Under the pieces are notes generated by a model that made no database searches, had not been told where the DNA came from, and worked only from the letters and a program-made list of their open reading frames with translations. Of a DNA stretch of 64,000 nt, positions 8,264-64,000 are shown piece by piece. Position numbers and translations under genes: made by a program. How positions within the stretch are numbered: the first letter of the stretch is position 1; each line of letters starts with the position of its first letter. Source of the DNA: Deltaproteobacteria bacterium (GTDB lineage Bacteria > Desulfobacterota_D > UBA1144 > Nemesobacterales > UBA2774); NCBI GenBank assembly GCA_029262275.1, contig JAJCZS010000008.1, positions 1-64,000 of the forward strand, written 5' to 3'.

Positions 8264-8449
8264 CTATCTCCCTATCAACTCACACTAAAACTTTTCTATG
8301 TATATGGAATGCCGACTCCGCAGCGGACATAAAGATAACTTTATCCTACCCGAATGAGCAAAAATTATCTTATTTTATTTCCAACACATATTCTGTAATA
8401 TGATCGTTAGATAGCAGATAGCACTATTAAGACTCAGTTTAATAAGATA

Positions 8450-9304
8450 CTAATATGATATTTCGTGATAGACCTTTCCCTTATAAGTACCCAGTAGTCT
8501 GGCAAATATTTTATTAGCAAGCAGTCTAACTATCAGATCTCCTAGATAGGGTGAGATTGCATCTGCCAGAATCAAAACTTTTGGCTGAAACGGGAGAACT
8601 ATTCGAGCTTGATTGTAATAAACACCATTCAAAACAGCTTTAGCAACTGAATCAACTGTTATTGGAGTCATTCTCCTAAATGGAGGCGGCATATCTTCAG
8701 GTCTAACGTGATCTAGAAGTGGAGTTCGTGTTAATGCCGGATGAATAATAGATACTTTAATACCCGAACCAAATAGCTCTTGTCTCAATGAATCTGTAAA
8801 AGCTGAAATTGCATGCATTGCAGAAGAATATCCTCCAAAATGCGGAAATGCTTTACGGCCTACAACTGAGGACATATTCATTATATGCCCTTCTCCCTGT
8901 TCTTTCATTATAGGAAGAATCTCTTTTGTAACAATGATGGTTCCAAAATAATCAACCTCCATCATCTCTCTCGTATTTTCAAGGAAATTACTATCCTCAA
9001 CCCGACCTACAAAGGAACTCCCGGCATTATTAAAAAGGACATCAATTCTGCCAAATTCCGACAAAACCGTTTTTACCATTTGCTGGACTTGCTCAGTATC
9101 CGACACATCTGTCGCAACAATTAATATATCGGGATTAAAACTCCTGATCTCATCCGCCACTCTTTCTAACTTGTCAGCCGAGCGGGAAACTAATACTGTT
9201 TTTGCTCCTTCTCTGGCAAACTCAATTGCTGTGCTACGACCGATACCACTTGAAGCTCCTGTTACAACCACAACTTTATCTTCAAATCTTCCTTTTTTAG
9301 TCAT
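8450..9304 (-). CDS. Short-chain dehydrogenase/reductase with Met at the catalytic Lys position
   Basis: 284 residues. The cofactor motif TGASSGIG (residues 15-22), DVSD, the NNAG motif (92-95) and the catalytic Ser region MNMSSVVG are all present. The active-site motif normally YxxxK reads Y159-SSA-M163, so the lysine that lowers the tyrosine pKa is Met. The C-terminal part (IVLPFQPKVLILADAISPYL) resembles the membrane-facing tail of some lipid-acting SDRs. AAGGAG precedes the ATG. It begins 51 bases after the NmrA-like gene, probably on the marR transcript. It may be inactive, atypical or regulatory; the substrate is unknown. Confidence 0.92.
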   Translation of the reverse strand: MTKKGRFEDKVVVVTGASSGIGRSTAIEFAREGAKTVLVSRSADKLERVADEIRSFNPDILIVATDVSDTEQVQQMVKTVLSEFGRIDVLFNNAGSSFVGRVEDSNFLENTREMMEVDYFGTIIVTKEILPIMKEQGEGHIMNMSSVVGRKAFPHFGGYSSAMHAISAFTDSLRQELFGSGIKVSIIHPALTRTPLLDHVRPEDMPPPFRRMTPITVDSVAKAVLNGVYYNQARIVLPFQPKVLILADAISPYLGDLIVRLLANKIFARLLGTYKGKVYHEISY

Positions 9305-9355
9305 TTTTAATATCTCCTTAATTTAATATAGTTTTTGTATTTATTATCTCCATAC

Positions 9356-10480
9356 TTACACTGCAATTTTGTTTTTATTAATGGAACTCTCAATATGGTT
9401 TGGACCAATTAGCGCAAGCCGCTTCTGCTTGGCCGTCACCATCCATTCTTCACTATCGTGGGCCAAAACAGGTTTTTCCAATAAGGGGTAACTGCGTTCG
9501 GACTCCCACCGGTCGAGGTCTGGTGCTTTAGTCAACATCGTCCTGAGCATAAGCCAAGCCGCTTCAAGCTTGTTTCCGATCTTAAAGTGTGGGAAGACAA
9601 GTTCAGGGTTATTAATGTAACGTTGTGCCGTGATTTCAAAGTTTTCGGGTGGTCGTCCGGTCACAAGCTCAACATGATCTGTAGGCGCGCCTATAGCATA
9701 AGTCCCACCTCGCAACTCCTCTGCGTAGTGGCGTATCTGAGCAATCTCGAAGTTCGAGAACCCAAGAGCCTTGGCAGCCTTGGTGAACATCCAGGTTGGA
9801 ACGTCCTGATAGCTAACCTTGCGATCCAAAATGCGGCCGAAGGTATCTGCAACATCGTGCCCGGAAATAAGCTTTGGTCCTGTGGGCCTATAGTTCTTGT
9901 TTATATACGATTCAGGTTTTTCGAGAACTCCCGCTACTACGGAAGCGATGTCCTCGTTCGAAGGCGGAGCGTTTAGCCCTTCACCGAACGGAAGCATGAG
10001 CTTGCCAAAGTTGACAACTGCTGGTAGGCCGAAGAAATATGTGAAAGCAAACATGCCAGGGTTGACATAAATGACATCGACCGTTGGCATCCATTGATAG
10101 ATATTGTCTGCCAGCCAGTGTTCGCGCTGATGGATAGACGGATGAGTCGGATGGGGATTCCATGCTGCCATGAGCGCCACCACTTCCAACTTTGCTTCCT
10201 CCGCAGCCAGAGCGAAAAGCATCGAACCATGCAATACATTCGCTGTGAACGGCGCACAAGAATAAGCGCGCTGGACATCTATGAGCGCCTTGCGAAGGTC
10301 CCGCATATCAAATAGATCTCCTACAAAGATCTCCGCACCTTCTTTCCTCAGGCGCTCCGAGCGTGCGTCTTCTCGGCGCACAAATGCTCTTACTGGAAAA
10401 CCTTTTTTTAGGAGTGCGGCTACTACTAAAGATCCGGTATGCCCTGCAGCAGATGTGACAAGTATTCTAGGTTTCTTCAT
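9356..10480 (-). CDS. NmrA-like NAD(P)-binding oxidoreductase (atypical SDR)
   Basis: 374 residues. The N-terminus ILVTSAAGHTGSLVV carries the GxxGxxG dinucleotide-binding pattern, and a second strand with VRAFVRREDA suggests NADP preference through its arginines. There is no YxxxK pair, as expected for NmrA-like proteins, which act as reductases or redox sensors. The last ~130 residues are an extension of unknown role. By eye the gene is richer in G+C than its neighbours, consistent with transfer. A perfect 16-bp palindrome sits 15-30 bases upstream of the start, matching one at marR, so this gene is likely repressed by that MarR protein. Confidence 0.85.
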   Translation of the reverse strand: MKKPRILVTSAAGHTGSLVVAALLKKGFPVRAFVRREDARSERLRKEGAEIFVGDLFDMRDLRKALIDVQRAYSCAPFTANVLHGSMLFALAAEEAKLEVVALMAAWNPHPTHPSIHQREHWLADNIYQWMPTVDVIYVNPGMFAFTYFFGLPAVVNFGKLMLPFGEGLNAPPSNEDIASVVAGVLEKPESYINKNYRPTGPKLISGHDVADTFGRILDRKVSYQDVPTWMFTKAAKALGFSNFEIAQIRHYAEELRGGTYAIGAPTDHVELVTGRPPENFEITAQRYINNPELVFPHFKIGNKLEAAWLMLRTMLTKAPDLDRWESERSYPLLEKPVLAHDSEEWMVTAKQKRLALIGPNHIESSINKNKIAV

Positions 10481-10494
10481 TTAATTCCCCCTGT

Positions 10495-10510
10495 ATGTGT
10501 ATATACACAT
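10495..10510. promoter_or_regulatory. Probable MarR operator upstream of the NmrA-like gene
   Basis: Perfect 16-bp palindrome ATGTGTATATACACAT in the 46-base gap between marR and the NmrA-like gene. Its core GTATATAC is shared with the palindrome at the marR start. MarR dimers bind palindromes of this size; binding here is inferred. Confidence 0.7.
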
Positions 10511-10526
10511 AATTGTTTAAATTTTT

Positions 10527-10997
10527 TTATCTTTCGTTTAGCTTCTTAGTTAACTCCTTAAGATTTGCAACTATAGAGCCCCATTTCTCAATTCCAAGCA
10601 AATTCCTAATCTGTTCATGTGTCTCTTTCCATACAGGCAAAGCTTGAGATAAAATTTGTTTTCCGTAATCTGTAATGCTGATTAGCTTGGCCCTTCGGTC
10701 ATCACCGGGTTTGATTTCTATAAAACCTTTCTTTTCTAATGGTTTTAAATTGCGCCCCAATGTAGTTCTATCCACCGACATCAATTCCGCTAATTTGGAT
10801 AATGTTATTGGTTCAGACACGAAAATGTTAGCTAAAACGGTATATTGGGTTCCTTCCAATCCAATAGACTTATATGCGCTATCAAAAAGATTTTGTACAG
10901 CCCTCGTAGCCTTTTTTAAATTGTAGGCCATACATTCACCACCTTCAGCCACGGCATCTTTATCCAATTTGTTTAAATCAATTTTTGCTTTAACCAT
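10527..10997 (-). CDS. MarR-family transcriptional regulator
   Basis: 156 residues with the winged-helix core TLSKLAELMSVDRTTLGRNLKPLEKKGFIEI (about residues 73-103), followed by the wing PGDDRRAKLISIT, the MarR signature. The N-terminal helix has Cys22 in GGECMAYNLKKATRAVQ, a position where related MarR proteins carry a conserved cysteine, so oxidant or electrophile sensing is possible. A near-perfect 26-bp palindrome overlaps its own start and a second lies before the next gene, indicating autoregulation and control of the NmrA-like oxidoreductase and probably the SDR. The ligand is unknown. Confidence 0.92.
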   Translation of the reverse strand: MVKAKIDLNKLDKDAVAEGGECMAYNLKKATRAVQNLFDSAYKSIGLEGTQYTVLANIFVSEPITLSKLAELMSVDRTTLGRNLKPLEKKGFIEIKPGDDRRAKLISITDYGKQILSQALPVWKETHEQIRNLLGIEKWGSIVANLKELTKKLNER

Positions 10998-11021
10998 AAT
11001 AGGAGTATATACACCTATTAT
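10996..11021. promoter_or_regulatory. Probable MarR autoregulatory operator overlapping the marR start
   Basis: 26-bp inverted repeat centred between 11008 and 11009 with one mismatched pair (arms AATAGGAGTAT and ATACACCTATT, extended by AT on each side). It overlaps the marR start codon and contains the same GTATATAC core as the site at 10495-10510. Confidence 0.72.
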
Positions 11022-11123
11022 TTTATTGTCAAGTCTTATTTTAATAATCTGAGAAACTTACATTTAAACCAGTTTGCCTAATTGCCTTTATTTCCTATAA
11101 TATTAAGCAGAGAGTATAAATAT

Positions 11124-12323
11124 ATGTCTAGAATAGAGAAGAAAAACATAATAGTTGGAGTCACCGGGGGAATAGCTGCGTATAAATCCTGCGAGCTTGT
11201 GAGAGGACTTATTAAGAAAGACGCATCTGTACAAGTAGTTATGACAAAGAATGCGACAGAGTTCATTACCCCTCTAACACTTCAAACACTATCTGGGAAG
11301 AAAGTGGCTATAAACACATTTGATCTTGAGTGGGAATCAGAAATAGGCCATATAACACTTGCCGATAATGCAGATCTTATAGTTGTGGCTCCGGCTACTG
11401 CAAGCTTTATTGGAAAAGTGGCTTCAGGTATTGCAGACAGTCTTCTTTCTACAGTTATTCTGGCAACCAAAGCGCCAATCATACTCTGCCCTGCCATGAA
11501 TGTGAATATGTACGAGAATGAAGCGGTTCAAGAAAACATAAAGAAACTACAACAACGCGGATTAATAGTTATGGAACCTGGGAAAGGGGATCTCGCTTGC
11601 GGATGGGAAGGCAAAGGTCGTTTGCCGGAGATCGATGTTATATTAGCAGAGATTGAGAGGACTTTAAGCCCGGAGGATATGAGTAATGAGAAAGTACTCA
11701 TTACAGCCGGAGCTACCAGAGAATTTATCGATCCAGTTAGATATATCTCCAACCCTTCAAGTGGCAAAATGGGTTATGCTCTTGCCAAGGAAGCGTCAAA
11801 CAGGGGCGCGGATGTAGTGCTAGTCTCTGGAAAAACTAATTTATGCCCTATTTCCGGTGTTAAAACGATCAATATTGAAAGCTCAGAAGAAATGTATAAT
11901 GCCGTTATGGACCATTTGGATTGGTCCACCATTGTAATAAAAGCAGCGGCAGTAGGAGATTATACACCTACAAAGACCCATAACGGAAAAATGAAAAAGG
12001 ATGACCAAGACAAGACATTAAAGCTTAAACGCACTAAAGATATACTTCATGAGATTGGCAAGAAGAAAGATGGCAGAATAGTCATTGGTTTTGCAGCCGA
12101 GACAGATAATTTAATCAAAAACGCTCAAGACAAATTAAAAAAGAAAAATGCAGATATGATTGTGGCAAATGATGTCTCTAAATCTGGAGCCGGATTTGAA
12201 GAGGATACTAATATAGCCCACCTAGTTTACGATAAGAATAGTGAAGAATTACCACTTATGCCAAAATCCCACCTAGCAAAAATAATATTTGATAAGATTT
12301 CAGATATCAAAAAAGATCAGTAG
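11124..12323 (+). CDS. coaBC: Bifunctional phosphopantothenoylcysteine decarboxylase / phosphopantothenate-cysteine ligase
   Basis: 399 residues from the ATG at 11124; an in-frame ATG at 11082 would add 14 residues lacking family features. The N-terminal half is the FMN flavoprotein CoaC ([19 protein letters not shown], then the [10 protein letters not shown] substrate clamp near residue 130 and [13 protein letters not shown]). The C-terminal half is the CTP-dependent ligase CoaB ([39 protein letters not shown]). It makes 4'-phosphopantetheine for coenzyme A. It is transcribed away from marR and stands alone. Confidence 0.96.
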
Positions 12324-48102: not shown

Positions 48103-48456
48103 TTGTCACAATCTGTAAAAGTAGGTGATCCAGCCCCCAATTTTGCTCTTTTCTCCGAAACAGGAGAAGCTGTAGAGCTTCAAGATTATATTGGAGATAG
48201 ACCAATTGTATTATTTTTCTATCCCAAAGATAATACAGCCATATGCACCAAAGAGGTATGCCACTTCAGAGATAATTTCGATGAGCTGAGAAAAATTAAA
48301 AATGCTGAAGTTATTGGAATTAGCTCAGACAACATTGAATCGCACAAAGAGTTTTCAGATACATACAACCTACCCTTTATGCTACTAAGCGACCCAGACA
48401 ATGACGTAAGAGGGGAATATGGAGTTCCCAAAACTCTTGGTACTATTCTGATTTAA
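48103..48456 (+). CDS. bcp: Bcp/PrxQ-type peroxiredoxin, C-terminally truncated
   Basis: 117 residues; the family is about 150. It starts at TTG (48103). The active site NTAICTKEVCHFRDNF holds the peroxidatic Cys and the resolving Cys five positions later, and GISSDNIESHKEFSDTYNLPFMLLSDPDNDVRGEYGVPKTLG follows in normal order across residues 72-113. The frame then ends TILI-stop, where homologues continue with GRVTFVIDKxG and a final helix. The break coincides with the shift to AT-rich accessory DNA, so insertion of the island into this gene is the likely cause. It may retain little activity. Confidence 0.88.
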   Translation: MSQSVKVGDPAPNFALFSETGEAVELQDYIGDRPIVLFFYPKDNTAICTKEVCHFRDNFDELRKIKNAEVIGISSDNIESHKEFSDTYNLPFMLLSDPDNDVRGEYGVPKTLGTILI

Positions 48457-51738: not shown

Positions 51739-52022
51739 GTTTGGTTTTATTATTCTAAAATCCCAACTTATACCGAGCTTGACAAAAGGGTGCAGTACAA
51801 GCCTTGACAGCCATTATTTTAAATACATAATATAAATTTGTATGTAAAATTGGATAATATACATTGGAAGACTTCTTAATATTCGAGAATAAACTTGAAA
51901 AATTTTGGGATCTTAGTTTTAAAATTCGAACTGTTCGATATAACCAAAAGATTGTAAAATGCCTGTACAAAAACGGATTCCATACTATAAATAAAGTATC
52001 TTTAATAATAGAAGATAATTTT

Positions 52023-52940
52023 ATGAACAAAAAGAATTTAAACAATAAAAAAGAATGCAAAGGCTGTGGGAAGATATTTTATAAAAAGGATTATGGAACT
52101 ATTAATAAAAATAAATGGGGGAAAAAACAATTTTGTAGTCATCCATGTTATGTAAAGAATATGGAAGAAGCAATAAAAAAAATAAGATCAACAATAAAGA
52201 AAGGATATGAAGAAGGGAGGGTCGTATGGAACAAAGATAAACCAATGAATAAAAATACAAAATTAAAACTTAGCAAGTCCAAAAGAAGGTATGAAGTAAA
52301 TGAAACTTTTTTCAAAAAATGGAACCAAAAAATGGCATATGTTTTTGGATTGTATATTAGTGATGGGAATTTAGTCATAAGAAATAAGCAATTAAGATTT
52401 AGATTGACAGACAAAGAGGTGTTGGAAGATATTAAAGAATTAATGCAAACTCAGCAACCAATAAGAGAAATCATAGGTCGTGATTCTAAAATGTATAACT
52501 TAACTATAACGAGTTTTGAAATAACAGAAGACTTAAAAAAATTAGGTATTAATCCGAGTAAAGAAAACTTCTATAATAATTTCAATATTCCAGATAAGTA
52601 TTTTCCACATTTTTTTAGGGGAGTATTTGAGAGAGATGGTGAAATTCACTTTAATAAACTAAATAAAGGGGTTCAGGTAGTAATAACGAACAACTCAAAA
52701 ATATTTTTAGAAACATTAAAAGAGAAAGTTTATACATCAGTTAATGTTGACATGAGAATAGTTTCAGTAAAAGATAAGAATGCTTACAGATTAGTGTCTT
52801 CAAGAAACGATAATAATTTGAAATTATTTCAGTTCTTATATCCTAATCCTAATGTTTATAAGCTTAAAAGAAAATATGATGTATTTAAAGATTATGTTGA
52901 TAACTGTATCGTGTACAGCAGGCCTAACCCTTTAAAATAA
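52023..52940 (+). CDS. Free-standing LAGLIDADG homing endonuclease with N-terminal NUMOD-like region
   Basis: 305 residues from the ATG at 52023; the frame extends to a TTG at 51864. The N-terminus has a CxxC...CxxxC zinc-finger-like run (CKGCGKIF, then FCSHPCY) and a NUMOD3-like DNA-binding repeat (WNKDKPMNKNTKLKLSKSKR). Two LAGLIDADG motifs follow: FGLYISDGNL and FRGVFERDGEI, each with the catalytic Asp or Glu near the end. So it is a monomeric two-motif nuclease. No host gene or intron interruption was recognised around it, so it is probably a free-standing mobile gene. Confidence 0.85.
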   Translation: MNKKNLNNKKECKGCGKIFYKKDYGTINKNKWGKKQFCSHPCYVKNMEEAIKKIRSTIKKGYEEGRVVWNKDKPMNKNTKLKLSKSKRRYEVNETFFKKWNQKMAYVFGLYISDGNLVIRNKQLRFRLTDKEVLEDIKELMQTQQPIREIIGRDSKMYNLTITSFEITEDLKKLGINPSKENFYNNFNIPDKYFPHFFRGVFERDGEIHFNKLNKGVQVVITNNSKIFLETLKEKVYTSVNVDMRIVSVKDKNAYRLVSSRNDNNLKLFQFLYPNPNVYKLKRKYDVFKDYVDNCIVYSRPNPLK

Positions 52941-53222: not shown

Positions 53223-54860
53223 ATGAATAAAGACAAATTAGAAGAACATATCTCATCACTACTAACTAATAATCCAACTGTATATAAAAAAGATTTAATT
53301 ACTTTTTATTGGACAAGGAAAAAATCGTCTTTACTACTTAATTTACTTAATGAGTTTACCAAAGAAGGCGATTTAATTTTTGATCCATTTTTAGGTTCAG
53401 CACCCATACTTTTTAGTCTAGATACAAAAAAATCAAATTTAGGTTTTGTTGGGTGTGAAATAAATGAAATGCCCATTGCATTTATAAAATTTAATATTAA
53501 ACAAATAGGTAAGAACAAATTAGTAGAACTCAAAGATAAAATTGAAGAATTTAGTAACGAATATATGAAGTACTATGAATACGAGAACCACTTATACAAT
53601 CATAAATCAACCATTTCAAAGTTAATTATTGATAGAATTGATAATCAAGTAATTGTTAATCAATTTCATTTTACTGATGATCCAAAGTCAGTTCTTGATA
53701 GTAAAGCTAATGATAAAATATTTAAGCTTAATTCTGATACTTACTTAAAAAGATGTTGTGAGTGTTTTGAAAAAATTAAAAATAAGGACACCGAATTAGT
53801 TACTAACTCTAGGATAGCTATCAAGTCAGGAATGATGCTATCTAATCTTTTTAACCCAATCAATTTTTATGTGTTGAAAAAATATTCCGAAAAGTTCAAA
53901 AATGATGAATTGATGATTACAATTTTAAGTTCAGTCTTGCACCTTTGTAGATTAACTGACTTAAAGTCGCAATCACAATTTCCGTATTGGGTACCTGATA
54001 AAAATATTATTGAAAGAAATGTCTTACTACTTTTAACAAGGTGTATTGATAAAATTATAAAAAGTAAAGAGCATAATACATTAAAGCTAGATTCAATTAA
54101 TAGCATTAATAAAATCGCTGATAAAAAAAAACCAGTATTAATTATTAATAAAGCTATACAAACTATAACCAATGAAGATATACCAGATAAAACCTTTGAC
54201 TTAGTGATAACAGATCCACCTTACTTTGATCAAGTTGCTTATTCAGAGTACTTAAAAATTTGGGAATATTTTTGTTTCTACAAATCCAATCTTAAGGATG
54301 AAGTTGTATTTTCAAATCGAAAAATTGAGCCAAGCAATGAAGAGCTTTATATTGAAAACCTTAAAAAGTCCTTTATAGTTGTTAAAAATAAATTAAAGGA
54401 TGATGGATTAGTAATCATATTTTTTAAAGATAGCAAACCTAAAAATATTCATATATTTCTTAAAGTAATGGGAGATTGTGGATTAAATTTTATTCGCTCT
54501 TTACATATAGGGAATAAAAAATATACATATAAGCAAAATACGACTCAAGAGACTACAGTTAGTGGAGAGTGTCTATTCTTTTTTGATAAAATTACTAAGA
54601 ATAAAGAATTAATTTTACCTAAAGAAGTTAAACTCAACAAAGCTGAATTGGATATTAAGTTAAATGACATTGTATATGAATTTACAAACAATTACTTAAG
54701 ATACAATCATCTTGCTGAACTTGGTGAGCTTTATGATAATGGATTATTGTACGAATTATATATTAACGGTCTTTTACCGTACATCACTTCATCCAAAACA
54801 ATAGTAGATATTTTGAATAAAAATTTTAATTTATTATACAATAGGAATTATACTAATTGA
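53223..54860 (+). CDS. DNA methyltransferase (N6-adenine or N4-cytosine), first of a pair
   Basis: 545 residues. The SAM motif I DPFLGSAPILFS is at residues 54-65 and the catalytic motif IV TDPPYFDQVAYSEYLKIW at about 329-346, an order I then IV. The rest, including the CCECFEKI run, forms an expanded helical section between them, probably target recognition. The C-terminal ~110 residues have no known motif. TTG of the next gene overlaps this stop. The pair and a convergent nuclease gene form a restriction-modification system. Target sequence unknown. Confidence 0.88.
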   Translation: MNKDKLEEHISSLLTNNPTVYKKDLITFYWTRKKSSLLLNLLNEFTKEGDLIFDPFLGSAPILFSLDTKKSNLGFVGCEINEMPIAFIKFNIKQIGKNKLVELKDKIEEFSNEYMKYYEYENHLYNHKSTISKLIIDRIDNQVIVNQFHFTDDPKSVLDSKANDKIFKLNSDTYLKRCCECFEKIKNKDTELVTNSRIAIKSGMMLSNLFNPINFYVLKKYSEKFKNDELMITILSSVLHLCRLTDLKSQSQFPYWVPDKNIIERNVLLLLTRCIDKIIKSKEHNTLKLDSINSINKIADKKKPVLIINKAIQTITNEDIPDKTFDLVITDPPYFDQVAYSEYLKIWEYFCFYKSNLKDEVVFSNRKIEPSNEELYIENLKKSFIVVKNKLKDDGLVIIFFKDSKPKNIHIFLKVMGDCGLNFIRSLHIGNKKYTYKQNTTQETTVSGECLFFFDKITKNKELILPKEVKLNKAELDIKLNDIVYEFTNNYLRYNHLAELGELYDNGLLYELYINGLLPYITSSKTIVDILNKNFNLLYNRNYTN

Positions 54861-55672
54861 GTAAAGCTGACAAATATAAAGATAAAGTTGTATTAGCTGA
54901 CTGCTTATCAAAATTAAAAAAAATTGATGATAATATTTTTGATCATTGTATTACAGATCCTCCTTACAATATCTCTGGTTATGATAATAAAAAAGAGATT
55001 GGTTGGTATAAATCTAATAATGTATGGAAAGGTGATAAAAAATTCTTAAAAATTAACGAAAATTGGGACAACTTTAGTGATAAAGAGTATTTTGATTTTT
55101 GTTATGAATGGATTTCTGAAATTACACGAGTAGTAAAACTTAATGGAAATATTATGATTTTTGGTTCTTATCACAATATTTATAAAATTGGTTTTATCCT
55201 GGAATTACTGGGATTAAAAATTGTGAACTCTTTGATTTGGTATAAAAGAAATGCTTTTCCTAACATCACGCAACGTATGTTCTGTGAGAGTACAGAGCAA
55301 ATAATATGGGCTGTTAATAATTCTAAAGCTAAAGCCAAAAATTGGACGTTTAACTATAAAGTCATGAAGGAATTAACTCCAAATAAAAAACAAATGAGAA
55401 ATATGTGGGATATACCTATGACTTCTATAAAAGAAAAGACTTATGGTAAGCATCCATCTCAAAAACCGTTAGAAGTGTTAGGTAGGTTAATTTTAGGTTG
55501 TACTAATGCTGACGAATTGATCATTGACCCATTCTGTGGTTCTGGTACTACAGCAGTATCAGCCAAGATTAATGGTAGGCATTACTATATTATAGATAGA
55601 AATAAAGAATACATTGAATTAACTAAAAAAAGACTCAAAAGTACTATCATACAACTACCTCATTCTCTATAA
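54857..55672 (+). CDS. DNA methyltransferase, beta-class, second of a pair
   Basis: 271 residues. Order here is motif IV first (HCITDPPYNISG, about 32-43), target-recognition middle, then motif X and motif I (KHPSQKPLEVLGRLI, then LIIDPFCGSGTTAVSA). This permuted order is that of the beta class (MboII/DpnA type) that methylates adenine N6 or cytosine N4. It starts at TTG overlapping the first methyltransferase gene. Its 3' end overlaps the 3' end of the convergent nuclease gene by 26 bases. Confidence 0.95.
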   Translation: MSKADKYKDKVVLADCLSKLKKIDDNIFDHCITDPPYNISGYDNKKEIGWYKSNNVWKGDKKFLKINENWDNFSDKEYFDFCYEWISEITRVVKLNGNIMIFGSYHNIYKIGFILELLGLKIVNSLIWYKRNAFPNITQRMFCESTEQIIWAVNNSKAKAKNWTFNYKVMKELTPNKKQMRNMWDIPMTSIKEKTYGKHPSQKPLEVLGRLILGCTNADELIIDPFCGSGTTAVSAKINGRHYYIIDRNKEYIELTKKRLKSTIIQLPHSL

Positions 55673-56636
55673 ATTTTTGTATGTCTTTTAATGTTACGCT
55701 TATTTGAAGTCTCCTTAAAGGTTCACCTTTCTTAGATTTTTTTTCATCTAACTTTTCTCTAATCCTATCTAATAAATTAGTATTTACCAAGTAAATCTTC
55801 TTAATTGAAACTGTATCAACATCTTTTATAGCCAATACAAAGTACTTTACATGTTCATATTTTTTTAAAACATTTTCACTTATATCTTGAAAATTCCAAT
55901 TTGTAGCTTTAGAGATTTTATATTCGTATTGATTACCGAATTCATCAAAAGCATCGTGAGCTCCTTCTCGTCCACCTTGCTCAGAATTTACGTTGTGATT
56001 TAGATGTATTGAAGTTAATAATTCCCAGATTTTGTTACTTGTTAAGATATTTTCGACCTTAGATTCAATCTCCATATTTTTTATAACAGTATAAATTTTG
56101 TTTAAGTCTTTTGTATAAATCCCATTAACTGTTTGCTTCTTAACATAAGACTTACTAATTCCCAATCGTGTTTCTAATTGGCGAGGACTGATGTTTATCA
56201 TCTTACGTGTATTTTTAATTGAAAGAATTGCTTGATTTAAGTAATTTGCCATATCACTTCCTTCAACTTCGTAATACCAATCAAATTCGTATATTCCTGT
56301 CACATCACTAATGTGTGTAAATAAAATAGATTTTATGCCATTTAATTTATCAATAGTTGTATTGCTGAAATCATTAAAAGTCCAAGAATGATTTGAGCTT
56401 GTTTCTTTGTAATGTTTGTATTCAAATTCATCACCGAATTTATCTTTCGCATCTCTACTACCACTATGTCCTGGAATTAATTGATGCCCTAAGCTATCAG
56501 CAATAATTATCTCAAAGATTTTGCTATTGCTAAAAATATCATCTATACCATATTGTGTTAGAAAGTATTTCTGAATGATGCTTAATTCCTTAGCTAAATC
56601 CAAGATTTTTGTTTTATTTGTATTATGAAATTTCAT
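55647..56636 (-). CDS. Restriction endonuclease made of two tandem PD-(D/E)XK-like halves
   Basis: 329 residues from ATG at 56636, with GAGGG 10 bases ahead. Two repeats are clear: residues 40-110 (SRDAKDKFGDEFEYK then WTFNDFS) and 203-270 (GAHDAFDEFGNQYEYK then WNFQDIS). Both carry DAxDxFGxx[FY]EYK, the acidic residues and E-x-K of a PD-(D/E)XK active site (E72-Y-K74 and E238-Y-K240). So one chain appears to hold both active sites, like a fused dimer. A linker with an HTH-like run (PRQLETRLGISKSYVKKQ) separates them. Convergent with and overlapping the second methyltransferase gene. Confidence 0.8.
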   Translation of the reverse strand: MKFHNTNKTKILDLAKELSIIQKYFLTQYGIDDIFSNSKIFEIIIADSLGHQLIPGHSGSRDAKDKFGDEFEYKHYKETSSNHSWTFNDFSNTTIDKLNGIKSILFTHISDVTGIYEFDWYYEVEGSDMANYLNQAILSIKNTRKMINISPRQLETRLGISKSYVKKQTVNGIYTKDLNKIYTVIKNMEIESKVENILTSNKIWELLTSIHLNHNVNSEQGGREGAHDAFDEFGNQYEYKISKATNWNFQDISENVLKKYEHVKYFVLAIKDVDTVSIKKIYLVNTNLLDRIREKLDEKKSKKGEPLRRLQISVTLKDIQKFIENEVVV

Positions 56637-56639
56637 AAT

Positions 56640-56885
56640 TGTCAAACCCTCGAAAACGAGCCTAGCTTAAGCGTTAGATTTTCTCCATGTTAAGCGCTGC
56701 TCTAAAGTTGTAACAGATAATTAGAGACATCTGGTTTTCTTAAATGCTTTTTCACGCTCTCCTTAAGCGTCATAGTATCCACATCCTAATGGGATCTGAA
56801 ACCGTTGTTATCACTCCCCCAAGTTTCTATCATTTCCATTACGTCGTCAAGTGACAGAAACCAGTCGGTATGTAAATTTTCATTA
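56640..56885 (-). pseudogene. IS3-family transposase C-terminal remnant and probable IS end
   Basis: Reverse-strand translation from about 56881 reads ENLHTDWFLSLDDVMEMIE, then TWGSDNNGFRSH-stop, matching the end of IS3-family OrfB (ECLNxHWFLSLxDAxxxIExWxxxYNxxRPH). The frame stops early and the catalytic core is missing. The last bases before 56640 (GTTTTCGAGGGTTTGACA on the reverse strand) end in CA, as IS3-family termini do. It abuts the restriction endonuclease start. Confidence 0.7.
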
Positions 56886-57510: not shown

Positions 57511-58155
57511 ATGATTTCTTCACGTTATAGAATTGATAGAGAAAAGGTTTTAGACCTTGATCAAAGGTCAAAACTACTAAGAACATGTGAGAAAAAAGCC
57601 AAACTGGATTTATACTTTGGACGTGAAACGTGGGTAAAACGTTACATGTTGGTAGATTTAGCACTTTATACCGGTTTACGTGTTGCTGAGATAGCTGATT
57701 TAACGATAGGTGATATCAATTTAAAAGCTAGAGATCCATATTTAATTGTAAGAAGTGGAAAGAGAGGCAAAAAAAGAGATGTTTATTTTGACAAAGAACT
57801 CTCAAAACATCTAAAATCATTTATAGATTGGAAAAAGAAAGCCATGAAAGAAGAAGTTAACACTGACAGTCCATTATTTGTTGGTAGATACGGTAAACAC
57901 AGTGCTGTTATAACTCTTATGAAATCATTTAAGAGAGCAGTTCAAGAATCTGATTTGCCTTCACACTTCTCAATACATAGTGCTCGTCATACATATGCTA
58001 CCTTTTTATTACATACAACTAACAATCTTAGGTATGTACAGAAACAGCTTGGACATAGTTCAATAAGTATGACTTCACTATATGCTGATGTCCTACCATC
58101 AGAAAATGGCAGCTTAGCCAATAAGATATTAGAACAATGTAGACAGATAGACTAG
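57511..58155 (+). CDS. Short tyrosine recombinase (catalytic domain only)
   Basis: 214 residues. All catalytic residues are seen: Arg57 in TGLRVAEI, a lysine near 84-88, His156 and Arg159 in HSARHTYATF, His182 in LGHSS, and Tyr191 in SLYADV. The usual N-terminal core-binding (SAM-like) domain is nearly absent, leaving about 40 residues before the catalytic fold. It may serve to resolve element multimers or to integrate cassettes. AGGAGG 6 bases before the ATG. No attachment repeats were found directly around it. Confidence 0.92.
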   Translation: MISSRYRIDREKVLDLDQRSKLLRTCEKKAKLDLYFGRETWVKRYMLVDLALYTGLRVAEIADLTIGDINLKARDPYLIVRSGKRGKKRDVYFDKELSKHLKSFIDWKKKAMKEEVNTDSPLFVGRYGKHSAVITLMKSFKRAVQESDLPSHFSIHSARHTYATFLLHTTNNLRYVQKQLGHSSISMTSLYADVLPSENGSLANKILEQCRQID

Positions 58156-58327
58156 AACACTATTAGCTTAAGTGATGATAATAAAAAAATATATTTTTGT
58201 ATATAGTTATTAGAGACCTTGCAGAATTCGACAGATAAAAGAAATATCTGATTTGAAAACACTTTTTATAAGTAAAAGGAAATTTTGTGTTATATTCTAC
58301 AATAAGCAACACCTGCCGGAGCCTTAA
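58156..58327. other. Intergenic stretch after the tyrosine recombinase
   Basis: 172 bases between the recombinase and the 36-residue gene, AT-rich, with no clear hairpin or gene. Confidence 0.35.
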
Positions 58328-58438
58328 CTAGCACTTAGGTAGTTTTTTTGGCTTAGAACGTTTATAACCTTTAACTCTTACGCTCTTTGGGCCAGGTTTA
58401 CCTTTAGTCCTAGTATGTCTACATTTGACCTTTGGCAT
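58328..58438 (-). CDS. 36-residue strongly basic protein
   Basis: ATG at 58438, TAG at 58328-58330, with GGAG 9 bases ahead of the ATG. The product starts MPKVKCRHTRTKGKPGPKSV and ends KLPKC; about 40% of residues are Lys or Arg, with one Cys near each end. It resembles neither a ribosomal protein nor a known toxin that I can name. Convergent with the tyrosine recombinase gene and in line with the large HTH-nuclease gene transcribed toward it. Probably a nucleic-acid-binding peptide, if expressed. Confidence 0.5.
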   Translation of the reverse strand: MPKVKCRHTRTKGKPGPKSVRVKGYKRSKPKKLPKC

Positions 58439-58631
58439 AAAGATCATCTCCTTCGGCATTGAGAAATAACTGCCGTGCCCCAATACAGCAGGTTTCTCTC
58501 AAAGGAGCTATAAAAATCCGACAGGTGTCGCAATCTTAAAATTTCTGATTTTAAAGACGTTAACAATTATCCACAACTCAAACTTCCTGATAATTTTTCT
58601 TAAATAAGAGTTCTCAAATAACAAGTTTTAA
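58439..58631. other. Gap between the large HTH-nuclease gene and the 36-residue gene
   Basis: 193 bases. It contains one TTATCCACA (58567-58575), a perfect DnaA-box sequence, but a single one is expected by chance in a window this size. No terminator hairpin was certain. Confidence 0.35.
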
Positions 58632-61600
58632 CTAATATCTGCCATATATGCCAAGTCTACGGTGCACTTTTTCATCCATCTCCCAATACTGTGCATCATG
58701 CATATATGAAGAAACGATTTTATCTAATATTGTGGATACATATGGAAAATCGAAAGCAAGTTTCCTTGACCAATTTCTATATTTCTCTGCAAGTTCAATC
58801 TCTTGCTTTCCACCCTCTCCCCTCCAAGCAGTCCCTCTTGAATTATAAACTCCTATGGCTAAACCTATAGCTATCTCATTAGATGAAATCTCTTCTAAAA
58901 CACTTCGTACAGATTCACATGGCCAAATATCGTCTTTTCCTATTGGGCTTTTAGCAAGTAGTTGACCGATCATTTGATCCCCAATGTCCTCTCGCGCATA
59001 ATTAATACATAATTCCCGAACTTTAAGTATCCAATCTCTCAGTTTCTTTTGATCAATTTTATTATCTCCTTGATCACCAGGTATTCGCTTTATTTTATCA
59101 AGGAAGTAATAACTTGCTGAAGCTAATGCGCTCTTATCGGTTACGTTATGTGGTATTAATTCTTGAGGATCTACTTGATCATCAGAACGCTTAAATGCTA
59201 AAGCAATCGCTTGGACAAATAGAAATGGTAACTTTTCTACTTCTTTTTCTAGATTTGGTATCCCATATTCGCTGTTATGCAAACTATTTATATGCATAAA
59301 CTCCAGTGTAGCAAGTTGATCCCTTGATACATCTGCTCTTGAATTAAGAATTTCAAACACATTTGATATGTCATATAAAGATATCTGAAAACGTTTATCA
59401 GCCTCACTGCTATTAACGCCAAGATTTTGCAAGAGTTCTATTAGAAGATCTGACTCTATTTTATCAATATGACTATTTGTAGTCATTAACGCTGCCCTAG
59501 GTCGACTACAATTGATAAAATTTTTAATAAATATCTCTAATTCTGACTCATTATGATTTTCAAATCTTGGAGCAACATCGGACCAATATATTTTCTGTAT
59601 CTCACTAGAACGATTTTTTACTATGCTCCATGTTTCCATACGAAATGGTGCGCATTTTAGTAATCGTATAATGTGATCAGAATTATCAGTTTTATCTCTA
59701 TCAAAAACGTCTAGCAATTCTTTAATTAAATGTTTTCTATCCCGAGAGCTAAGTTGATATATGAACCCAGAAATACAACTATCAATTTTATATTCAAGAT
59801 TTTTATCTTTACTAATAATCATCAGATACACTAAATCTGCCCTTGACTTATTTGGTATTGCACCTTGAGCAAGATGTTTACCTATAATTCTTGGAGCTTC
59901 AGAATTACTTAGTAACTCTAATACTCCTTCGATATTTTTTTTTGACCAAATTTTATTTAAAGCCTCTACACGTTTTTTACTTGTTTGTTCCTGGCGCTGT
60001 GTAAAGTCACTTTCCAATTCTTCAATTTTGTTAAAGGATTCATCTATCCATTCTTTCTCAAATAACCAAATATTCTCTATAACAGGGTCTAAAGGAGTTA
60101 ACATGTTGAATGCTTCTCTAGCTAACTTTCTAGTCTCATTATCAAAATATTTATACCCATACCATGTAAAAGCATTTTTTCTTATTGACTCACGCAACTC
60201 TGCTCTTTTGTGATCATTTGTTTCGTTTAAATTCCAAATTTTGATAAGTTCCCATACCCGATTTCTGTCAGAGTCAGGCATTGAAGGAATTCTATGAACG
60301 AGATCAGATAACTTCATTTCATCATAAATATCCCATTCTAGAACGATGTCTAAAACTTTTCTTCTATATTCGTATATTTCCTCGTTGTCCGGTCTAGTAA
60401 CAACTCCGCTTGCATCATTTAACCATTGCGGACGTTGATTTGAATAGGAAACGTTTGTATCTGTATAAATTTGATCCATGCAAATTTGCCAGCCTATGGA
60501 AGGATAGAGCTTAATAATATTTTCTAAAACTTTAATACGCTGATTAAGGTTTGCCGCCGTTTGTGGGCGCCATGAACGAAATATTTCAAGTAGACTATTA
60601 ATAGGTTTATTAACATAGTTATCATTAATTGTATTCTCTGATAGTTTACAGAGAATAGATGCGACTCTGTTTAATCTTTCCGGCTTCCATGCCAGCGTTT
60701 CAAGTGCCCAAAGCAATCCAGCTCTATAACACTCGGACCCAAATATTGAACTATCAACAGGTTCTAACAAAAACAATAATTCAGGTTGTTCACTTTTCAA
60801 ATCTTCCTCTATTATTTCTAAAAAGACATCGGGAGAAGCTTCGGCATAACGTGGTAAATCGTGTTGATGAGATAGCCAAGTTTTTGCTCTAAATGGTTTT
60901 AACAATCCACTGATTAAGGCATTAACCTTTAACTTTATATTTATTCCTAACCTATTTTGAAATAAATCATTACCAAATATTGAAAGTAATACTATGGTCT
61001 CACAAAGATTTTCCCTTAACGCTGATGATTGATTTCTGGTTTTATTATAAAGTGCTGCTGCCCAGCGTTTGTCATTTGGTAAATCGAGGGCAGGATCTTC
61101 TTCACTTAGAACACATGTGGCTACAATAAAGAAGTTATCTAAATTATTGGCAGTTACTAAATCTTTTATTAAAAATAAGCTGTCTAACTTTGATGTTACT
61201 CCTCTATACTTACCAATGCTCCACAATGGTGATTCTTCCATTTTATGTATTTTGGCAAATACTTCTTCTACTCGTTGGTATTTCTTATATTCATAGAAAA
61301 ATAGTACAACATCTTGATCATCAGGATTTGTTGCATCCCAAGCTCCAACTAAAACTAAAGGAATCATTTTTTTTACTAAATCTAAATCTTGAGCCCATAC
61401 CGGTTGTCTAATCTCTGGTATCTGAGATAGCAAACGTCTTAGAACTGTAGGAGACTTACCAGATTTTCTTGAGAATGTATCAACTTCTAATTCATCAATC
61501 CCCATTGAAAGTAGAGATTGTTTAAAGTTTTCATCTCCAAGTATATCAAGTGATATATCAGGATCATTTATTAACGAACCTTTACTACGAACTATAATTA

Positions 61601-62735
61601 TATGTTTCTCTTTTTGTAGTCCCTCTAAAGCTTTTTCCGCATCCCCTGTTCCAATAATAGCAATATAATCAGTGTGAGCTCTACTTAATTTATTGAGAGC
61701 GTCTGCTGACAAAATTACAGCTACGTTATCATAGTAACTTGAGTTAGAATTACTAATGTGTTCAAATAAACACACTAAAAATGCAATAGCTTCATCTTTA
61801 GAATCTGCAGCAACAATATAAGGTTTATCAGGATTTGAATTGAGCCAATCTAAAAACTTACTTTTATATGCTTCAGATGAAGTTAAAAACAATTCTTTAC
61901 CTAACTCGGGTTTAGTACAAGAAGCCCACCTATGCCAATATTGGTCAAGCGATAGAATTTTATCATCATATAGTCCTAGTAATTCGGCAAACCAAATTTG
62001 AGTTTGGAAAGATTGCTCTATCCACTGTTCAAGGTCGTTCGAATCATAAACTCTTACATCTTTGAACTCTGATAGATTCTTTTTTTTAATTTCCCACTCT
62101 TTCTTCTTACTCCAAGTCCTAGGTGTTACAAATACAAATGTTGTTTTCTGTCTTTCACTATTGGAAATAGATTTAATTCGTGATTCATAATCTTTGTCAG
62201 CTTTTGATTTAGGATTCTTATCACAGCCAAATTCCCATCCAGATTTCCCATTAGGAATCCAAGGTGTAGTCGTTTGTGTTTCAACAACTCCATCCCATCC
62301 AGGCTTTTGTGAATTATCATAAGCCGGAAAATCAACTTTACTCAGTTCTATTCCAGTTGTATTGACTAATCTTCTTATAAGTGCGGCAAGAAGTGACCTG
62401 GCTTCAATTGATTCCGACCATAATTCGATTTGACTTGCAGTTATTTTCCTGAAATTAGGACTATAAGTTTGTACTGTTAAGTTTGGCTTATCTTTTTTTA
62501 TTTTAAAGTCATCAAATTTTGTTTGCATATCCAGCAATTCTAGGCTATTCAATTCGAAAGCTTTTTCAAAACGAGCTGCCATTCTAGGTGAGAGTGTTGA
62601 TTTTTCATTAAGAAGATTTGATAATGCGGGCCTGCCAACATTTAAGATTTTTGCAGTGTCTGTAATGGTTAGATTTTTTGATTCTATGAATTTTTTTAGA
62701 AACTTTCCAGGATGTTCGGGTTTGATATTATGCAT
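58632..62735 (-). CDS. 1367-residue HTH / nuclease-like / helical-repeat protein, candidate defence effector
   Basis: Residues 8-62 (HPGKFLKKFIESKNLTITDT, then VGRPALSNLLNEKSTLSPRM) match the HigA-type antitoxin HTH. Residues 105-250 look like a PD-(D/E)XK-type fold: KPGWDGVV (Asp148), SGWEFGCDK (Glu168, Lys173) then KSKADKDYE, TTFVFVTPRTW and VRVYDSNDLEQWIEQS. At 307-320, YIVAADSKDEAIAFL stands where STAND ATPases have a P-loop, but lacks the GxxxxGK[ST] glycines and lysine. The remaining ~900 residues are helical and repeat-like. I believe the 100-320 block recurs in large uncharacterised bacterial proteins, without an agreed function. Position in a defence-bearing island suggests anti-phage activity. 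Confidence 0.8.
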   Translation of the reverse strand: MHNIKPEHPGKFLKKFIESKNLTITDTAKILNVGRPALSNLLNEKSTLSPRMAARFEKAFELNSLELLDMQTKFDDFKIKKDKPNLTVQTYSPNFRKITASQIELWSESIEARSLLAALIRRLVNTTGIELSKVDFPAYDNSQKPGWDGVVETQTTTPWIPNGKSGWEFGCDKNPKSKADKDYESRIKSISNSERQKTTFVFVTPRTWSKKKEWEIKKKNLSEFKDVRVYDSNDLEQWIEQSFQTQIWFAELLGLYDDKILSLDQYWHRWASCTKPELGKELFLTSSEAYKSKFLDWLNSNPDKPYIVAADSKDEAIAFLVCLFEHISNSNSSYYDNVAVILSADALNKLSRAHTDYIAIIGTGDAEKALEGLQKEKHIIIVRSKGSLINDPDISLDILGDENFKQSLLSMGIDELEVDTFSRKSGKSPTVLRRLLSQIPEIRQPVWAQDLDLVKKMIPLVLVGAWDATNPDDQDVVLFFYEYKKYQRVEEVFAKIHKMEESPLWSIGKYRGVTSKLDSLFLIKDLVTANNLDNFFIVATCVLSEEDPALDLPNDKRWAAALYNKTRNQSSALRENLCETIVLLSIFGNDLFQNRLGINIKLKVNALISGLLKPFRAKTWLSHQHDLPRYAEASPDVFLEIIEEDLKSEQPELLFLLEPVDSSIFGSECYRAGLLWALETLAWKPERLNRVASILCKLSENTINDNYVNKPINSLLEIFRSWRPQTAANLNQRIKVLENIIKLYPSIGWQICMDQIYTDTNVSYSNQRPQWLNDASGVVTRPDNEEIYEYRRKVLDIVLEWDIYDEMKLSDLVHRIPSMPDSDRNRVWELIKIWNLNETNDHKRAELRESIRKNAFTWYGYKYFDNETRKLAREAFNMLTPLDPVIENIWLFEKEWIDESFNKIEELESDFTQRQEQTSKKRVEALNKIWSKKNIEGVLELLSNSEAPRIIGKHLAQGAIPNKSRADLVYLMIISKDKNLEYKIDSCISGFIYQLSSRDRKHLIKELLDVFDRDKTDNSDHIIRLLKCAPFRMETWSIVKNRSSEIQKIYWSDVAPRFENHNESELEIFIKNFINCSRPRAALMTTNSHIDKIESDLLIELLQNLGVNSSEADKRFQISLYDISNVFEILNSRADVSRDQLATLEFMHINSLHNSEYGIPNLEKEVEKLPFLFVQAIALAFKRSDDQVDPQELIPHNVTDKSALASASYYFLDKIKRIPGDQGDNKIDQKKLRDWILKVRELCINYAREDIGDQMIGQLLAKSPIGKDDIWPCESVRSVLEEISSNEIAIGLAIGVYNSRGTAWRGEGGKQEIELAEKYRNWSRKLAFDFPYVSTILDKIVSSYMHDAQYWEMDEKVHRRLGIYGRY

Positions 62736-63036
62736 TTTCTAATCTCACTTTAACATTTACTAAAATTATATCATACTGTGTAGCGTTACGCAATACACTT
62801 TTTGAGCACAATATTACGTCATAGTTAAAATGGCAAATTTACAAAAAATAATAGCTGATATAACTGCCTAACATCATTTAACATTCTAAACTATTTTAAA
62901 ATTCTAAAAAAAAGTTGGGCCGATAACCGTTACTGCCTGAGTATAATAAGATAACTAGCGTGTATATCGGCACTGCGATTACGGTTGATTTTACAATATA
63001 CTTCAAATCGATTTTATGCTATAAGGAGGATTTAAG
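62736..63036. promoter_or_regulatory. Divergent promoter region between the large HTH-nuclease and serine recombinase genes
   Basis: 301 bases with GCCGATA (62919-62925) and TATCGGC (62965-62971) as inverted arms, and AACCGT (62925-62930) with ACGGTT (62981-62986) as a second, nested-offset pair. A TATAAT lies at 62942-62947. AAGGAGG is 5 bases before the TTG of the recombinase. The inverted arms could be operators or recombinase-binding DNA. Confidence 0.4.
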
Positions 63037-64000
63037 TTGGGTAAAGAACAAAAAAAAGCAGTTGGCTACATTAGAGTATCAACCTCTATTCAAGCTAAAG
63101 AAGGTGAAAGTCTCTCAACACAAAAACAACAAATAGCTGATTATGCTAAAAGTAAAGGTTGGCAACTAGACTGTATATACGCTGATGAGGGAATTTCAGG
63201 TACCAAGATTGAGTATAGAACTGATTTTCAGAGAATGGTTCAGGATGCTAAGCAAGGAAAGTTTGAAGTTGTTATCTTCACAAAGCTATCAAGATTTGCA
63301 CGCAATGCTAGAGAATATATGAACTTGTCTTATGAACTGGAAGAGCATGGAATCTCTTTAGTAAGCATAAAAGAAAACATAGATCCAACTTCAAGTACTG
63401 GAAAAATGATAGCAGGGATTTTAGCCTTATTTGCAGAATGGGAACATGAAACTATAAAGGAACAAATGTATGAGAATAAGATGTCTAGGTGGAGGGAGCA
63501 ACGCGCATTTATTGGTATGCCACCTTACGCTTACTACTGGAACAAAGTAAAAAAACAGCTTGAAATTAATAAAGAGGAAGCCAAAGTTTATAAATTGCTT
63601 GTTGACATGTATCTGAATCAAAAAATGTCTTTTGAAGACATAAGTCTAAAGCTCAAAGAACAAGGTATAAAAGGTAAACGTGCATATTGGAGCAGTGCAA
63701 CAATCAGTTATACATTAAAGAATCCAGCATATTACGGCAATTATGTTGTTAATCAGTTCGAATACGAAGAGGGAGTGAGGGGCGTTGGTTCAAAAAGAAC
63801 AAAAAAAAGAAAATCTAGTTCTGAACATATTCCTTTTAAGATTCCACCTTTAATTTCAAAAACGCAATGGGATCTAATACAAAAACAGGCAGAATTTAAT
63901 AAGCGTAAATCTAAACGTTCTGATAAAACAGAAGACTTAATCTTGCGTGATGTTCTTATTTGTGGACGATGTGGAAGTCGAGTAAAGCCAAGAGTAGGAA
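63037..64000 (+). CDS. Large serine recombinase, 3' end cut by window edge
   Basis: Open from TTG at 63037 (AAGGAGG 6 bases ahead) to the window end, 321 residues seen. The resolvase domain starts VGYIRVST with the catalytic Ser15, then SLSTQKQQIADYAKSKGW, YADEGISGT, and KLSRFARN with the conserved arginines; the long helix is ALFAEWEHETIKEQMYENK. A recombinase domain (GMPPYAYYW to NPAYYGNYV) and the beginning of the zinc-ribbon (CGRCGS) follow. This is the phage integrase type that inserts DNA at specific sites without a tRNA. It is the likely enzyme that inserted the island into bcp. Confidence 0.96.
   Translation, partial: MGKEQKKAVGYIRVSTSIQAKEGESLSTQKQQIADYAKSKGWQLDCIYADEGISGTKIEYRTDFQRMVQDAKQGKFEVVIFTKLSRFARNAREYMNLSYELEEHGISLVSIKENIDPTSSTGKMIAGILALFAEWEHETIKEQMYENKMSRWREQRAFIGMPPYAYYWNKVKKQLEINKEEAKVYKLLVDMYLNQKMSFEDISLKLKEQGIKGKRAYWSSATISYTLKNPAYYGNYVVNQFEYEEGVRGVGSKRTKKRKSSSEHIPFKIPPLISKTQWDLIQKQAEFNKRKSKRSDKTEDLILRDVLICGRCGSRVKPRVG

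Follow-up and report, generated by a model that had tools for sequence, protein, structure and literature searches.

The window analyzed here is a stretch of 64,000 nucleotides (positions 1 to 64,000 of contig JAJCZS010000008.1, assembly GCA_029262275.1) from a Deltaproteobacteria bacterium, and it encodes a protein of 1367 amino acids (58632–62735, minus strand) that we interpret as a candidate single-protein sensor-nuclease of anti-phage defense. The open reading frame (ORF) is intact, with an ATG start and no internal stop, in line with the single chain described in an earlier note on this DNA, and the protein has one match in its own 2.48-Mb genome. From the N-terminus, it comprises a HigA-type helix-turn-helix (HTH; residues 1–81, 62493–62735), a PD-(D/E)XK-like nuclease domain (residues 100–252, 61980–62438), an NLR/STAND-like core (residues 257–513), and an alpha-solenoid that is the presumed sensor (residues 514–1367, 58635–61196), all encoded on the minus strand.

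The family to which this protein belongs is real and well conserved, and is without a name in the libraries searched. Beyond the HTH, nothing above cut-off was obtained from Pfam or NCBIfam, while PHROG 18693, whose listed function is unknown and whose profile begins past the HTH, matches residues 97–1350 (2e-146). A description of the family was not found in the literature searched, which was mainly open-access, with most subscription journals outside the search; GiPD474 (PMC12724215) is a different protein, and neither the accessible part of that paper nor that of the DefensePredictor paper (PMC13092281) describes the family.

The nuclease domain was recognized from an AlphaFold2 model of residues 1–600 (built on eight sequences; mean pLDDT 86.5), a structure prediction that the earlier note had called for, and from an alignment of relatives. 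In the model, residues 100–252 form two helices and then a strand-strand-strand-helix-strand-helix-strand succession, with D148 (codon 62292–62294) just ahead of strand 2, E168 (62232–62234) at the end of strand 3, and K178 (62202–62204) in the following helix, as read from the secondary structure of the model rather than its coordinates. These three residues, along with D182 and D231, are each invariant in all 25 aligned nuclease-type relatives, i.e., those of the 37 loci that have a long ORF bearing the nuclease N-terminus (in the remaining 12, the N-termini are other, short, or broken); twelve of the 25 were compared with the window protein, at 22–39% identity. The PD-(D/E)XK-like domain proposed earlier from D148, E168, and K173 holds up in its fold and its two acidic residues; K173, in turn, is rejected as the catalytic lysine because position 173 is Lys in just seven of the 25 relatives, and K178 takes its place. 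No Pfam match beyond noise was obtained for this domain, and no PD-(D/E)XK chain was among the best 60 of 77 PDB profile matches (E up to 1). Families of the PD-(D/E)XK type diverge past the reach of sequence detection. The model and the conservation together suggest that residues 100–252 form a PD-(D/E)XK-like core.

Following the nuclease domain, residues 257–443 (61407–61967) are predicted to adopt an NLR/STAND-like nucleotide-binding-type fold without a Walker A motif, and the secondary structure of the model indicates a putative winged-helix-like segment thereafter (residues 446–513, 61197–61400). Foldseek placed Avs4 at the top of the matches to residues 1–600 (8dgf, 6.2e-7), with AVAST5, Apaf-1, SAMD9, and CED-4 ranked ahead of the HigA chains or interspersed with them. 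The best non-HTH match in VIA-align was CED-4 (Z 9.8, 289 residues, root-mean-square deviation [rmsd] 6.3, model residues 113–584), and the plant TIR-NLR WRR4A was also matched (Z 9.0, 240 residues, rmsd 5.1, model residues 267–536), so that the Avs-like reading given earlier is borne out at the level of fold. The segment in the place of a P-loop (residues 309–320, AADSKDEAIAFL; 61776–61811) had already been reported to lack its Gly-Lys, and this loss is common to all 25 nuclease-type relatives rather than peculiar to this gene (GxxxxGK[ST] in 0/25); by our own count, 17 of the 25 fit A-x-[STA]-x-x-E-x-x-A-[FY] at this position. On the strand expected to carry Walker B, no conserved acidic residue was found across the same relatives. 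A pattern match in locus L038 falls in the nuclease domain and not at the P-loop position. At a further locus (genome G103; L015:1432–3669), the P-loop-less core is kept and a hydrophobic-looking N-terminus replaces the nuclease, with the frame broken further on.

A second model, of residues 270–1367 (11 sequences, pLDDT 83.2), is an alpha-solenoid with Foldseek matches mostly to HEAT-type proteins, in agreement with the long helical remainder noted previously. A C-terminal module of ∼900 residues, starting near residue 452, is found behind several different N-termini. It is preceded by a TIR domain in genome G023 (PF13676, 2.8e-12), by a conserved domain of 290 amino acids, in which TDD and QxK are invariant, at E. 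coli-type, Shewanella, and other loci (family searches gave no match to this domain, and its fold was not identified), and by just 32–35 residues in one viral contig and in Buttiauxella. With 145 residues ahead of the module, the TIR form is too short for an NTPase-type core, and, judged by length, the TIR, TDD, and unextended forms all appear to lack this core. Short N-terminal peptides with a QxHxGxGHN-like pattern were also seen directly ahead of the module (L009:7902–8010 and L052:7914–8010). Such peptides might recruit an effector in trans, an idea familiar from conflict systems.

The phylogeny of this module was reconstructed from 35 sequences, two of the 37 loci being too short; labels other than HigA were assigned from RefSeq names and by eye, and G142, in which 96 residues precede the module, was placed in the TDD group. 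All eight rows with the HigA HTH fall in one clade (100/99), and the nine TIR, TDD, or unextended rows fall in another (98/99), whose nearest neighbor is a nuclease-type Shewanella row (100/100). The nine rows labeled as having another HTH need three changes on the tree, and the eight nuclease rows without an HTH need four. The fusion to a HigA-type HTH, a feature emphasized in the earlier note, is present in the window protein but marks one clade only, as other members carry other N-terminal extensions or none.

The HTH matches the curated HigA model TIGR02607 (antidote_HigA) above its cut-off, as expected from the earlier description (51.8 bits, cut-off 47.7, E 5.3e-14; NCBIfam), and HigA crystal structures align to the model with Z 11.9–14.7 (3trb: Z 14.7, rmsd 2.7 over 82 residues; VIA-align). 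The domain belongs to the same family as the HigA antitoxins, for which operator-bound structures exist (PDB titles); unlike these antitoxins, it is fused to about 1280 further residues. No HigB toxin was seen beside the gene, there being no ORF of at least 60 amino acids in 58156–58631 or 62736–63036 (toxin models were not run on short ORFs elsewhere).

A 26-bp palindromic candidate operator (62772–62797) is situated 36 bp before the start codon and has 21/26 matches to the perfect form, TGTATTGTGTAGCGCTACACAATACA, which was taken from L035, so that L035 itself scores 26/26 by construction. The palindrome occurs near the start in six of nine HigA-clade genes (the window gene 21, L003 23, L004 19, L035 26, L036 22, and L039 24, of 26); the L004 site falls within the called ORF, ahead of the likely true start, and the L039 gene is cut by the end of its contig and absent from the module tree. 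It was found in none of 20 family loci lacking the HigA HTH (best score 15/26), and no site of at least 19/26 appeared in 591 kb of once-shuffled sequence. An operator shared with the standalone HigA genes of related genomes was considered and dropped: the best sites in 11 such loci score 12–17/26, with shuffles as good in 5–9 of 200 for the four best loci and in 67 to 200 of 200 for the other seven. The distribution of the palindrome, six of nine HigA-clade loci against none of the 20 others, fits self-repression by the HigA-type HTH, with binding suggested by this sequence footprint; the self-regulated expression envisaged earlier thus gains a conserved candidate operator, and repression itself would be the putative outcome.

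Plasmids of Halioglobus, Shewanella, and Ensifer carry full-length relatives with 36–39% identity. Of the 62 plasmid records with any match, 17 cover at least 80% of the query, and HTH-only matches account for 17 among the 40 plasmid matches listed. Further relatives come from Microbacterium, whole genomes, and IMG/VR contigs (20 loci, some near-copies), and the relatives span Pseudomonadota, Bacteroidota, and Actinomycetota. The C-terminal module is present in 12 of 386 genomes, one of them that of the window, and in none of six same-genus genomes searched; scans of viral contigs with single proteins yielded no new contig. An E. coli relative that begins at the nuclease domain (WP_044687236.1, annotated as "hypothetical protein") has matches in 204 of 5426 complete genomes, 125 of these with at least 80% cover; all of its places are chromosomal, and IS3 lies inside 5 of the 20 copies listed. 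The TDD form has matches in 8 of the 5426 E. coli genomes and, in the case read, adjoins prophage tail genes.

Among defense families, PD-Lambda-4_A is the closest in profile comparison, and PD-lambda-4 is alike in length and order, with a PD-(D/E)XK-like N-terminus, an NTPase-type core, and a long C-terminus (alignment by eye). Related genomes encode two proteins of the PD-Lambda-4_A type, L030 (1136.7 bits) and L031 (263.4 bits), with which we compared the family. The profile of 12 family members aligned to this pair with a probability of 97.8 (E 7.5e-13, 696 columns, 16% identity; hhalign), where the profile of the pair consists of two sequences only and parts of the alignment are weak. The P-loop is retained, along with a D…QxK motif, in both L030 and L031, whereas the window protein is without a P-loop (0/25 relatives). 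Membership in PD-lambda-4 by sequence was rejected, as the window protein matches PD-Lambda-4_A with 15.7 bits (E 5.6e-4; PADLOC, which also gave a weak HTH match) over residues 667–742 only, vs. 2529.9 bits for the neighbor of the relative at L037. No PD-Lambda-4_B was seen near the window gene among seven neighborhood proteins scanned with PADLOC (best 25 matches for two of them). One of the pair, a PD-Lambda-4_A-like protein, is joined to an antitoxin HTH of the MqsA type (L031:1309–5400), and antitoxin-type HTHs have therefore joined such proteins at least twice. PD-lambda-4 is listed with a P-loop NTPase in the accessible part of PMC10952713, and is not named in that of PMC9519451.

The Avs (AVAST) proteins share a common layout with the window protein, comprising an effector, a STAND/NTPase-type core, and a repeat sensor, and Avs4 and Avs5 are among its best PDB fold matches. 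Membership by sequence was rejected here also: two PADLOC-DB 2.0.0 models matched at E up to 1, neither of them Avs, and no Avs chain was among the best 60 of 77 PDB profile matches (E up to 1). Recognition of terminase or portal and a Walker A motif both belong to Avs/AVAST, and the latter is missing from the window family in 25/25. DSR2-type proteins reportedly have a SIR2-solenoid domain layout and likewise combine an effector with a solenoid without a working NTPase. According to the accessible part of PMC11087589, they are activated by a phage protein; their effector differs, and the window protein retains a degenerate NTPase-type core. For Avs5, a change in Walker A abolished immunity, as stated in the accessible part of PMC12931631. 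Within what these sources cover, the nearest working models are Avs as regards layout and DSR2 as regards NTPase-independent activation. We file the window protein, a plausible immune receptor with an unusual feature, as an NLR/STAND-like defense variant and not as a member of Avs or PD-lambda-4.

The neighborhoods of the relatives provide further context. At L037, a relative is divergent from and adjoins PD-Lambda-4_A (2529.9 bits), followed by PD-Lambda-4_B, and the E. coli chromosome examined has, in an integrase island at ssrA, genes that agree with these in length and spacing. PD-lambda-4 and the 1248-amino-acid relative stand back to back at L037:2905–7545 and 8013–11759 and at L069:10890–19747. 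In G035, the gene directly borders a type I specificity-like gene; in G023, its neighbor is a type I specificity-like gene, after which comes a Fic gene. Explicit defense genes (restriction, abortive-infection [Abi], SIR2, Shedu, and superinfection exclusion) occur at five of 12 annotated plasmid loci (L010, L093, L096, L097, and L099), or at six if a PDDEXK-annotated gene at L008 is included; the count excludes toxin-antitoxin genes, an unspecified "endonuclease" (L003), and the whole of L098, a Salmonella plasmid whose match spans 113 residues. In a PADLOC batch (E up to 1e-15), 146 neighboring ORFs from 18 non-plasmid loci matched 253 models, and 142 control ORFs from 11 loci matched 127, a crude comparison in which one protein matches many models and the PD-lambda-4 genes of L037 are inside the test set. 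This batch left out 141 of 287 test ORFs and 49 of 191 control ORFs, as well as the neighbors at L080 (G038), where a larger, wrong ORF was taken as the gene; it points the same way as the plasmid counts, as weak support. The ORF beside the G038 relative is 2019 amino acids long (L080:12531–18590).

The window gene is situated in a 16.3-kb mobile island (contig positions 48441–64705) bounded by perfect 16-bp inverted repeats, the left at 48441–48456 and its partner at contig positions 64690–64705, outside the window. The two genes flanking the island are 19.5 kb apart here, vs. 3.2 kb in G002, 4.8 kb in G005, 4.4 kb in G006, and 2.9 kb in G009 (same family); the G002 and G005 alignments meet at the inverted repeats, and the site is empty in relatives. 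In other same-genus genomes, the two flanking genes are on different contigs or were not both found. By eye, the target is a peroxiredoxin-like gene. With its terminal inverted repeats, a recombinase at one end, and an empty site in relatives, the stretch has the features of a serine-recombinase island resembling the staphylococcal cassette chromosome (SCC). The recombinase, at the right end, is the divergent neighbor of the window gene, a large CcrB-like serine recombinase (below the family cut-off; 63037–64000, plus strand, running past the window end). Its ORF ends past the inverted repeat (contig G000:C8 64690–64743; L078:690–743), and its last codons therefore come from the target site.

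The island also carries a candidate replication initiator, a tyrosine recombinase (57511–58155, plus strand; PF00589, 2.7e-31), a LAGLIDADG-type protein (51864–52940; PF14528, 5.1e-8), a DNA methyltransferase-like protein (53223–54860, plus strand; PF01555, 1.7e-13), and a DNA methyltransferase (54857–55672, plus strand; PF01555, 5.8e-45). A protein of 332 amino acids without a named family (55647–56645, minus strand) might be the restriction enzyme of these methyltransferases. By eye, this protein has two similar halves with an EYK motif in each. The neighbors reported in the earlier note are accordingly present as regards the adjoining serine recombinase and two nearby methyltransferases, while for the restriction-modification system it described, no restriction enzyme was identified.

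We consider it reasonably probable that the window protein is a single-protein anti-phage (or anti-mobile-element) sensor-nuclease, derived from NLR/STAND receptors, self-repressed, and fired without a nucleotide switch. The C-terminal alpha-solenoid would bind a phage or other foreign protein, and this binding would alter assembly via the winged-helix/pseudo-NTPase core, presumably with no nucleotide switch involved, given that all 25 nuclease-type relatives have lost the P-loop. The altered assembly would license the PD-(D/E)XK-like domain (D148/E168/K178) to cut DNA, probably resulting in abortive infection. In the HigA clade, the HTH is expected to bind the palindrome before the start codon and keep the expression of its own gene low, and the gene is carried on a mobile island.

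Several observations weigh against this interpretation. The canonical place of the ExK lysine (position 170) is Gly in 24/25, and residues 132–246 match HolA below its cut-off (21.3 bits vs. 80; NCBIfam). Whole-chain Foldseek TM-scores are low (query-normalized 0.14–0.30 for the non-HTH rows, rmsd 7.5–25), and the solenoid rows in VIA-align reach at most Z 8.8, which is not diagnostic, with EfAvs5 at 7.2 in a list that includes importins and other proteins. AAA+ Clp ATPases score Z 8.4–9.1 over about 170 residues of the core, the same as NLRs, and because they score alike, layout and the Foldseek order count as much as Z in the NLR assignment. The palindrome is missing near the gene at three of nine HigA-clade loci: at L005, a 22/26 site lies 1.3 kb upstream, past a transposase-like ORF, and the best scores at L011 and L012 are 16 and 14 of 26. 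The E. coli association represents one island lineage, and its loci therefore count as one association. When a second 17-kb region of eight of the plasmids was used as control, explicit defense genes were counted at four of eight loci (five with L008) vs. two of eight controls, a difference that means little. The survey of homologs that the earlier note suggested for defense-island enrichment is thus weak, and its defense reading is supported by the PD-Lambda-4_A profile link, the E. coli relative beside PD-lambda-4, and the TIR-bearing relative.

The protein might instead be a modification-dependent (Mrr/type IV-like) restriction enzyme, whose solenoid or core reads foreign DNA or its modification and senses no phage protein. 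The PD-(D/E)XK-like domain with its invariant D/E/K, the methyltransferases within the same island, and the relatives that adjoin type I restriction genes would all suit such an enzyme, but in the nearest structures, the folds of the NLR-like core and the HEAT-type solenoid bind protein, and TIR domains, to one of which the module is also joined, are not effectors that cut DNA; we regard this explanation as unlikely. A toxin-antitoxin-like or maintenance device, in which the HigA part is antitoxin or regulator, the rest is a toxin held in check, and the island is stabilized rather than phage fought, also seems improbable. It would account for the HigA-type HTH, the location on plasmids and a recombinase island, and the candidate autoregulatory palindrome; against it, the HigA HTH is confined to 8 of 35 tree rows in one clade, the gaps on either side of the gene hold no ORF of at least 60 amino acids and hence no separate small toxin was seen there, and the E. 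coli relative, which starts at the nuclease domain, adjoins a known defense system. Very improbable is a transcription regulator or degenerate pseudo-enzyme without nuclease activity, whose solenoid would receive a host signal: the off-canonical lysine and a PD-(D/E)XK assignment made from model and conservation only are in its favor, but the polar triad is invariant across all 25 relatives, and a TIR or other domain in the place of the nuclease suggests an effector slot.

Returning to the sensor-nuclease reading, a broader proposal is that a wide NLR-like receptor lineage dropped its ATP switch and that the HigA-clade receptor is a one-protein positive-feedback alarm, a proposal we offer tentatively and with considerable doubt. 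The P-loop would have decayed under a catalytically conserved nuclease, and in the sister clade the NTPase-type core would have gone, leaving a TIR or other effector directly on the winged-helix/solenoid sensor, in a putative order of events. As the HigA-clade receptor would be sensor, effector, and repressor at once, its binding of a target could end self-repression as well as activate the nuclease. The general view is that STAND/NLR receptors must bind a nucleotide in order to switch on. A widespread family of the same layout without a P-loop, with relatives that appear to lack the NTPase-type core, makes the dispensability of the nucleotide switch directly testable. Furthermore, the joining of an immune effector to a repressor of the antitoxin type, with a palindrome to match, would give a simple example of a defense protein setting its own dose.

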